Shown piece by piece: positions 4,094-34,737 of a stretch of DNA of 35,278 nt. The DNA lies in assembly GCA_028697145.1 (NCBI GenBank), contig JAQVFR010000014.1, forward strand, positions 33,406 to 68,683, in the 5' to 3' direction. The stretch is from Actinomycetota bacterium (GTDB taxonomy: Bacteria > Actinomycetota > Geothermincolia > Geothermincolales > RBG-13-55-18). The notes beneath the pieces are model-generated. The model saw only the letters and a list, made by a program, of their open reading frames with translations, made no database searches and had not been told where the DNA came from. The number at the start of each line of letters is the position of its first letter. Position 1 is the first letter of the stretch. The translations under genes were made by a program, and so were the position numbers.

Positions 4094-5487
<1,394 letters not shown>

Positions 5488-32376: not shown

Positions 32377-32595
32377 GGCTGTTCCCCTCCCGCCAGCATC
32401 TCGAAATCCTCCGCTTTCAGCCCGGGGTTCACGCTCACATCGGCCAATACCCCGTGTATATTTACTCCGGGTGAGCAATGCGACGTTTCGATCATACATG
32501 GCCCCGATGGCATGATTATAACAGGGGCGCCGTCGCCCGTTCGCCGGGATGATCACTTCTCGAACAATGCAACCTTTTGGCGGAACGCAGCATAC

Positions 32596-32648: not shown

Positions 32649-33320
32649 ATGGACGAAGAGATCGCCGGGCTCGAAAAGAGGGTGGGGGATGATCCCGACG
32701 CCTTCGCACGCCTCTTCGAGCTGAACTACGACCGCATCTTCAACTTTATCCTCTACAGCACGGGGGACGTGGAGGCCTCCCTCGACTTGACCTCGGAGAC
32801 CTTCTTCAAGTCCCTGCGGGCGATCCGGCGCTTCGACCCCCGCCGGGGCTCGTTCACCGCATGGCTTTACGCCATCGCCTCGCGGGAGGTGGGCATGTAC
32901 CGGCGCAGGCTGGGCAGGACCGGGAGGCACGCCTCTACCGGCCTCACCTTCTCGACGGAGGTGGGGGAGGTGCGGCAGGCCGTCTCCACCGAGGATATCG
33001 CGGACGCCAGGCGGGAACTGGAGGAGAGCGAGGACGGCATGGTGCTGGCGCCCCTTCTACGCGAGCTGGCGCCGAAGTACCGCGAGGTCATCTTCCTCCG
33101 CTTCTTCGAGGACAAACCCTTGCAGGAGATAGCGGATATGCTCGGGCGACCCGTGGGGACGGTGAAGGCGCAGTGCCACCGTGGCCTGAAGATATTGCGG
33201 GGACTGATGCAACCCCCGGAGGGGCCGGGGCATATAGGGATATGGGAGGCGGAAAGGGAAGCGGAGGCGGAGCCGGCGGGGGAGGCCGGCCCGCGGGAGG
33301 CGGAGCGAGATGGCAAGTGA
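32649..33320 (+). CDS. ECF-type RNA polymerase sigma factor
   Basis: The 223-residue sigma70-family protein has regions 2 and 4 only. Region 2 runs from AFARLFELNYDRIFNFILYSTGD to SFTAWLYAIASREVGMYRRR, including the DLTSETFFKSL segment for core binding. Region 4 runs from LLRELAPKYREVIFLRFFEDKPLQEIADMLGRPVGTVKAQCHRGLKILR. After region 4 comes a low-complexity Glu/Ala-rich tail of about 35 residues. The ATG at 32649 follows GGTGGAA at six bases; GTG at 32637 is a possible alternative. The last 11 bases overlap the start of the serpin gene, so the two are coupled. By position, the serpin gene occupies the anti-sigma slot. Confidence 0.9.
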   Translation: MDEEIAGLEKRVGDDPDAFARLFELNYDRIFNFILYSTGDVEASLDLTSETFFKSLRAIRRFDPRRGSFTAWLYAIASREVGMYRRRLGRTGRHASTGLTFSTEVGEVRQAVSTEDIADARRELEESEDGMVLAPLLRELAPKYREVIFLRFFEDKPLQEIADMLGRPVGTVKAQCHRGLKILRGLMQPPEGPGHIGIWEAEREAEAEPAGEAGPREAERDGK

Positions 33321-34737
33321 TACAGGCGGTGCGAGGCTGAATAGGATCGAGATCCCCGCCCACCGCGAGGCCCTTGCGAAGGCGTTGCGGAAAAGATACG
33401 AGGAGATGGCGGCGGGGCCTGCGCCGGCGGGAAGGATTCTTTCCCGCCCGGGGAGCCGCGGGATCGTGAAGTACGCCGTGCCCGCCCTGGCCGCGATCGC
33501 GCTATGCGCTACCGTCCTGGCCGTTCTCGTGGTCAGCTGGCCCGGCGGCGGCGGGACGGATCGGACCACCCGGACCGTGATGACGGGCTCGCAGGCCCTG
33601 GCCGCCCGCGAGGAAGCGCGAGCCACCGGCTTCGACTTCGCGCTCTTCAAAGAGGTCTCGGGGGGGGTGCCCGGCAACGTCGTGCTCTCCCCCTTGAGCG
33701 CGCGCATGGCCCTGGCCATGGCCTACAACGGGGCCAGCGATGAGGTAGCGGGGGAGATGGCCTACGTCCTGGACTTCGAGGGCATGGACCTGGACGATGT
33801 GAACGCCATGATGCGCGGCCTCATCGATTCGCTGCTGCAGGCGGACGAGGACCAGGTCCAGTTAGAGCTGGCCAACTCCATCTGGAGCGACGACGGCATG
33901 GGGTTTACGGAGGATTTCCGCGAGCGCTGCGTCGACAATTACTTTGCAGAGGTAGCCAGCGTGGACTTCGGGGAGGGCGAGTCCGCCGGGATCATCAACC
34001 GCTGGGTGGAGGAGAAAACTCAGGGCAAGATAACCGACATCGTCGACGCTTCAGAACTGGAGGACCTCGGTGACCTCGTGGCTATGCTCATCAACACCCT
34101 CTACTTCAAAGGAGACTGGACGCGCGGGTTTGACGCTTCGATGGATGCCGAAGGCCCTTTCCGTCTCGCGGGCGGCGGGACGAAGGAGGTTGTCTTCATG
34201 CGCCAGGCGGGCCGTTTCGACTACCTGGAGAACGAGGTTTTCCAGGCGGTGAGGCTGCCCTACGGGAACGAGCGCCTGGGCATGTACGTCTTTCTACCCC
34301 GCGAGGGGAGGAGTCTCGAGGATTTCACGGCGGGACTCGACCTGGCCGGGTGGGATGAGTGGATGGCTTCGTTCTCCCGCGTGGAGGGAGAGATCGCGCT
34401 GCCGTATTTCGGTACGGATTTCGAGGCGGACCTCAGCCCCGCCCTCGTATCCCTGGGGATGGGGTCGGCCTTTGGGGGAGATGCGTTACCAGGCATGTTC
34501 GCGGGAAAGATCGACGGCCCTGGCCCCTTTATGGAGAAGGTCGTGCAGAAGACCTCCATCGGCGTGAACGGAGTGGGGACCGAGGCGGCAGCGGCAACGG
34601 TAATTCATGTACGGTGGTGTGGGCTACCCGAGCAGGTGCAGGGCTTCGTCATGGAGGTGGACCGCCCCTTCTTCTTCGCCATCAGCGACAACGAGACGGG
34701 TACCATCCTCTTCATGGGCTCCATCTACGAGCCGTAG
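33310..34737 (+). CDS. Membrane-anchored serpin, possible sigma-factor regulator
   Basis: The 475-residue protein has three parts. Residues 1-52 are basic and soluble, with a helix-like stretch IPAHREALAKALRKRYEEM. Residues 54-76 form one membrane helix (AVPALAAIALCATVLAVLVV). From about 105 to the end is a full serpin domain: NVVLSPLSARMALAMAYNGA, a breach/shutter-region LINTLYFKGDW, and the C-terminal VDRPFFFAI. The reactive loop at 34576-34620 has the inhibitory hinge GTEAAAAT (P15-P8). Counting from Gly P15 puts P3-P1 at Arg-Trp-Cys. With basic residues before the helix, the serpin should be outside. Its ATG overlaps the sigma-factor stop by 11 bases. Serpins are protease suicide inhibitors; here a regulatory role is inferred from position. 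No zinc anti-sigma motif is seen. Confidence 0.9.
   Translation: MASDTGGARLNRIEIPAHREALAKALRKRYEEMAAGPAPAGRILSRPGSRGIVKYAVPALAAIALCATVLAVLVVSWPGGGGTDRTTRTVMTGSQALAAREEARATGFDFALFKEVSGGVPGNVVLSPLSARMALAMAYNGASDEVAGEMAYVLDFEGMDLDDVNAMMRGLIDSLLQADEDQVQLELANSIWSDDGMGFTEDFRERCVDNYFAEVASVDFGEGESAGIINRWVEEKTQGKITDIVDASELEDLGDLVAMLINTLYFKGDWTRGFDASMDAEGPFRLAGGGTKEVVFMRQAGRFDYLENEVFQAVRLPYGNERLGMYVFLPREGRSLEDFTAGLDLAGWDEWMASFSRVEGEIALPYFGTDFEADLSPALVSLGMGSAFGGDALPGMFAGKIDGPGPFMEKVVQKTSIGVNGVGTEAAAATVIHVRWCGLPEQVQGFVMEVDRPFFFAISDNETGTILFMGSIYEP

Follow-up and report, generated by a model that had tools for sequence, protein, structure and literature searches.

A membrane serpin with a putative anti-sigma module, encoded beside an ECF sigma factor gene in an actinomycetotal genome

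We identified an ECF sigma factor gene that overlaps a gene for a membrane-bound serpin, within a window of 35,278 nucleotides (the whole stretch of DNA analysed here) from a bacterium of the phylum Actinomycetota. The sequence suggests that a membrane serpin, whose inside half is of the type found in the partners of sister sigma factors, controls a stress-type sigma factor, and that this pair may serve to detect proteases and relay the signal to gene expression. The explanation that best accounts for the observations overall, and that we regard as probable, is a serpin anti-sigma factor which senses a protease outside the cell and leads to a stepwise release of the sigma factor. The features on which this reading is based are listed below with their coordinates in the window.

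32568..32594, + strand: TGCAAC-N16-GCATA promoter of the ECF type, 81 bp upstream of the sigma start (same architecture at four close sigma genes)
32649..33320, + strand: ECF sigma factor gene, 223 aa, regions 2 and 4 (Pfam)
33310..34737, + strand: serpin anti-sigma candidate gene, 475 aa, 11-bp overlap with the sigma gene
33310..33465, + strand: cytoplasmic module at the N-terminus (residues 1-52) with the motif IEIPAHREAL and a helix predicted at 17-35 (module homology, model)
33466..33537, + strand: single membrane helix, residues about 53-76 (hydropathy peak; helix 53-72 in the model)
33538..33624, + strand: outside linker from membrane to serpin, residues about 77-105 (low-confidence stretch 74-94 in the model)
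33625..34737, + strand: serpin domain, residues 106-475 (PF00079; Foldseek against solved serpins)
34570..34623, + strand: reactive loop P17-P1', residues 421-438, GVGTEAAAATVIHVRWCG (alignment with other serpins)

The 223-aa protein is a member of the ECF sigma factors. Its only Pfam matches were Sigma70_r2 (E=1.8e-14, residues 22-91) and Sigma70_r4_2 (E=3e-14, residues 136-184), with none to region 1.1 or region 3. The sigma stop codon TGA occupies 33318-33320 and the ATG of the partner gene lies at 33310, so that the coordinates confirm the 11-base overlap described in the original prediction. The 475-aa partner is a member of the serpin superfamily, with a full-length domain and the corresponding fold. 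PF00079 matched residues 106-475 with E=5.4e-87 and 367 of its 370 positions were covered (positions 4-370), and the AlphaFold2 model (mean pLDDT 81.7) showed a helix at 17-35, the membrane helix at 53-72 and a serpin fold, for which the best PDB matches in Foldseek were all serpins. Miropin (5ncs) is the closest solved relative, and conserpin is likewise near among solved chains. Together, Pfam and the model bear out the layout first read from the sequence, in which a basic N-terminus and one membrane helix precede a complete serpin domain. Membership of the zinc-binding (ZAS) anti-sigma family was rejected, since residues 1-52 contain no Cys, and with it no HxxxCxxC, and the 475-aa protein has no Pfam match to zf-HC2 or another zinc finger.

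An anti-sigma role for this protein is likely, judging from the homology of its N-terminus. When relatives were searched with the full protein, all matches were to serpins only with one exception, a non-serpin membrane protein from another genus of the same family (G009), which matched residues 9-101 and whose gene lies directly after that of a sister sigma factor (L034). A second sigma of this kind is found in the same genome as the serpin (L028), followed by a membrane protein beginning MARDVKKVYFPMVEVPSHMRSL, and a third is present in a genome of the same genus (G001, L044), where the module motif of the partner reads EIDVPTHGKSL. The L034 sigma is 51% and the L028 sigma 52% identical to the 223-aa sigma, and a further comparison put the two sister sigmas at 49-51%. 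The partners of all three have the cytoplasmic motif E-I/V-x-V/I-P-x-H-x3-L in common, and their outside domains differ, being LolA-like/DUF4367, PepSY, and PepSY-like as assigned by eye without a Pfam match.

In a profile built from the N-termini of the three sister partners, with the 475-aa protein excluded from the training set, the 475-aa frame was the top match outside that set among 4,995 frames (E=1.7e-5 including the membrane helix, and E=0.0068 without it). Its cytoplasmic segment scored 20.9 bits against a maximum of 12.5 among about 19,900 shuffles, none of which reached the real score. A search of 31 genomes of the class gave only four strong module matches, each directly after such a sigma gene, and the weaker matches aligned mostly to the membrane helix. 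The proposal that residues 1-52 act as the anti-sigma part is thus supported by sequence homology, and the conservation of the first 50 or so residues, named in advance as a check, was found as a stretch of about 52 residues plus membrane helix common to the three sister-sigma partners. The protein accordingly shows the hallmarks of an ECF-associated membrane anti-sigma factor, namely an adjacent overlapping gene, a module homologous to the partners of sister sigmas and one membrane helix. Because of this N-terminal homology and of the promoter shared with the sister sigmas, the adjacency of sigma and partner is not chance. The most economical reading of these sequences would be that of a short anti-sigma module onto which various outside sensors can be fitted.

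More distant sister sigmas of the phylum have partners with a similar MPxRxxxLRxxLL segment and Pfam RsgI_M (E=4e-23 to 9e-14). At three loci (L049, L050 and L051), RsgI_M anti-sigma proteins form pairs with ECF sigma genes, although it is for SigI that partners of the RsgI type are usually described. We also observed, directly before the sigma genes of L028 (4796-6037, - strand) and L034 (4151-5125, + strand), a near-copy of the outside sensor domain without the module, possibly a decoy or co-sensor. The L028 sigma gene seemingly begins with CTG at about 4634-4636 (- strand), preceded by the Shine-Dalgarno sequence GGGAGG and with no ATG, GTG or TTG at the expected start, and its true start would therefore escape standard gene callers.

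A 26-nt promoter architecture, TG(C/A)AAC-N16-GCAT followed by A/T-rich bases, lies 5' of all four close sigma genes within about 110 bases, and shuffled upstream DNA reached the match in 0, 3, 5 and 56 of 20,000 trials for the respective genes. Since the promoter is common to all four, these sigmas look autoregulated, and by the same sequence evidence autoregulation of the sigma-serpin pair is very likely. The pattern gave 8 matches in the genome, compared with 3 for the reversed pattern; these comprise the two autoregulatory sites, one within the sigma gene and five others. No wider regulon is claimed, as the remaining five barely exceed the background of three. One of the five, a promoter-like TGAAAC-N16-GCATT site, lies 86 bp before rpoD, the gene of the main sigma factor (G000:C22:39131-39157, L128). 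A second full TGCAAC-N16-GCATA lies at 33208-33234, within the 3' end of the sigma gene and 102 bp before the serpin start. It may be a chance match, since its first half derives from conserved Met-Gln codons, or it may be an internal promoter for extra anti-sigma factor.

The inhibitory hinge of the serpin had been described as intact, and this holds for one part of it. Residues 423-430, GTEAAAAT, form a canonical P15-P8 hinge, with the Gly at P15, the Thr at P14 and the small residues at P12-P9 that are expected of inhibitory serpins. However, the pairing of a P17 Glu with a Lys/Arg partner on s6A, as used to recognise inhibitory serpins, is lost: of 55 other serpins in the comparison, 53 have Glu at P17 and 46 have Lys or Arg at the s6A partner position, whereas the present protein has Gly421 and Tyr366, respectively. 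We take this pair to be the breach salt bridge of alpha-1-antitrypsin. In the Z variant of alpha-1-antitrypsin the breach salt bridge is broken, and the protein still inhibits but opens more easily. With both residues lost, normal inhibition is not assured; by analogy, a breach that opens more readily would be apt for a hair trigger, and would equally fit a loss of inhibition. By loop spacing, P3-P1 are Arg-Trp-Cys. The lipoprotein sister serpins share a conserved loop from which this one departs, and the target protease therefore probably differs as well. Serpins on a plain membrane helix without lipobox, likewise lacking the P17 Glu and its Lys/Arg partner, were also seen at two other loci (L087 and L093).

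The joint loss of both breach residues, unlike nearly all relatives, and the departure of the loop from that of the sister serpins would agree with a serpin that is non-inhibitory and senses a ligand or stress by conformational change, its N-terminus still being a true anti-sigma part. Against this, the small-residue hinge from P15 to P8 is fully kept, as are 38 of 42 conserved serpin columns, and we consider such a sensor unlikely. That the serpin instead senses outside proteases is, on balance, the expectation we hold, if by no great measure.

We propose that the sigma-serpin pair would be transcribed from a promoter read by its own sigma factor, as the shared promoter indicates. At rest, the sigma factor would be bound and kept at the membrane by the cytoplasmic helix around IEIPAHREALAKALRKRYEEM, which is homologous to that of the sister partners, while the serpin outside would present its reactive loop to proteases. 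A matching protease would cut the loop, and, as is known for the family, the loop would enter sheet A and the protease would be trapped. The altered serpin may then expose or strain the membrane linker, which a housekeeping site-1 protease would cut before a site-2 protease completed the cleavage. The freed sigma factor would raise its own production together with fresh serpin and the expression of its targets. The genome contains an M50 site-2 protease candidate (G000:C11:40683), and for the linker neither a site-1 cleavage site nor a site-1 protease was identified. Release by stepwise proteolysis is put forward tentatively. The pair could likewise be a one-shot detector, in which the serpin would be spent on trapping, the irreversible loop insertion would free the ECF sigma factor and the sigma factor would renew the serpin, a reading to which we give somewhat less than even odds.

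The same parts could also be arranged with the serpin as a guard that blocks the site-1 protease of its own linker, so that the sigma factor would fire only once the protease exceeds the inhibitor, in the manner of a titration timer. One chain does carry both serpin and cleavable linker, and autoregulation would renew the inhibitor and reset the system. Nevertheless, the lack of a site-1 protease candidate counts against it, as do the unrelated outside domains of the sister partners, by which inhibition is no general need of the module, and we give this reading little weight.

Serpins occur in 64 of 396 genomes of the phylum. Of the approximately 70 serpin frames in these genomes, nearly all are anchored through a lipoprotein or another signal, and none carries the module. 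The serpin domain described here forms a group (100/87 support) with lipoprotein serpins from the same family, and a sister serpin in the same genome is 48% identical, is a lipoprotein and has no adjoining sigma gene. As the domain nests among lipoprotein serpins that lack the module and are not linked to sigma genes, it appears that a resident serpin was joined to the anti-sigma module. Among the approximately 70 frames, a sigma gene lies directly upstream only here and in one other genome (G258), where a lipoprotein serpin without the module lies 58 bp downstream of an unrelated ECF sigma gene (L103, 1582-3538). This locus was rejected as a second example of the fusion, given its lipoprotein serpin and its other type of sigma. 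A scan of genome contigs gave serpins from other phyla, none of them adjoining a sigma gene. Homologous serpins without linked sigma genes had been named as grounds for doubting the anti-sigma reading. Such serpins do exist, but, anchored as they are by lipoprotein or other signals, they are without the N-terminal module and for that reason mark the fusion rather than refute the reading.

If the N-terminus were a mere membrane anchor, the serpin would be a protective surface inhibitor co-expressed with the sigma factor by happenstance. The related serpins are indeed membrane-attached lipoproteins, and the lipoprotein serpin of G258 is preceded by an unrelated sigma. Here, however, a cytoplasmic segment of 52 residues, homologous to the partners of the sister sigmas and with a conserved motif before the helix, stands in place of any lipoprotein signal, and we judge a mere anchor improbable.

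We return to the fusion of serpin and anti-sigma module, whose main weakness is that it is known from one genome, with no second example among the 396 genomes of the phylum. In G001, the neighbouring hydrolase, CxxCxxCC gene and thioesterase stand together in one neighbourhood that lacks the sigma-serpin pair, and a sister species (G002) likewise has the hydrolase and the CxxCxxCC gene but not the pair. These findings speak for a fusion that is recent and confined to one lineage, and against a joint made in assembly. An assembly chimera or chance adjacency, for which the single genome and the nearby contig end could be cited, is highly improbable in view of the single open frame with its matching start and overlap, the shared neighbourhood of the genes on both flanks in G001 and the grouping of the serpin with serpins of the same family. 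The last 127 bases of the contig (35152-35278) recur without any difference at G000:C40:19925-20051, which probably reflects an assembly overlap joining the two contigs. Elsewhere in G001, two serpin genes stand in tandem, the first encoding a lipoprotein serpin and the second broken across two frames (L004, 137-2733, - strand).

The roles known for serpins are those of inhibitor, hormone carrier and storage protein. If our reading is true, a serpin would form the receiving end of a bacterial transmembrane signal, and its conformational change, the largest known in protein inhibitors, would be put to a new use. It would also illustrate a route by which ECF systems come to sense new stimuli, namely the fusion of a local surface protein to an anti-sigma module already in place, and the arrangement would offer a ready design for protease-triggered gene switches.

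The original prediction knew of no described system of this kind, and our search of the open literature, although not proof of absence, likewise gave no serpin anti-sigma factor. Several known systems nevertheless resemble parts of it. The serpin domain is the same as in membrane-attached bacterial serpins and belongs to the clade of the lipoprotein serpins of the class, with miropin, tengpin and conserpin as solved or engineered relatives; in contrast to the lipoprotein serpins, it has an anti-sigma module in place of the lipoprotein signal, has lost the P17 Glu and is linked to a sigma gene. The SigI/RsgI systems are similar in being modular anti-sigma arrangements with varied outside domains, and RsgI_M partners accompany the distant sisters of the present sigma. 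However, membership of the RsgI family was rejected for the 475-aa protein, as the Pfam search gave neither RsgI_N nor RsgI_M, and its sigma is of the ECF type. In RsiV/SigV of Bacillus subtilis, the outside domain of the anti-sigma factor is a lysozyme receptor and itself the sensor (PMC4183432). Because its own outside domain meets the attacking enzyme, RsiV provides the best precedent for a receptor of such an enzyme that is at once an anti-sigma factor. Here the outside domain is a serpin, the ligand would be a protease, and trapping would be covalent and irreversible; RsiV-type membership was rejected, as Pfam shows the serpin as the sole outside domain. In Thermoanaerobacter tengcongensis, Tt-TolB has 39 residues ahead of its one membrane helix, and this N-terminus binds the ECF sigma factor Tt-RpoE1, whose experimentally mapped promoter, tGTTAC-N16-CGTC, is autoregulated (PMC3397946). 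Both systems have an autoregulated ECF sigma factor, very likely so in ours, followed by a gene for a short cytoplasmic N-terminus, one helix and a large outside domain, and their promoters are equal in layout with a 16-base spacer. The outside domain of Tt-TolB is TolB-type rather than a serpin, and the likeness drawn here is one of layout. For an N-terminus this short that binds a sigma factor, Tt-TolB offers the best precedent overall.
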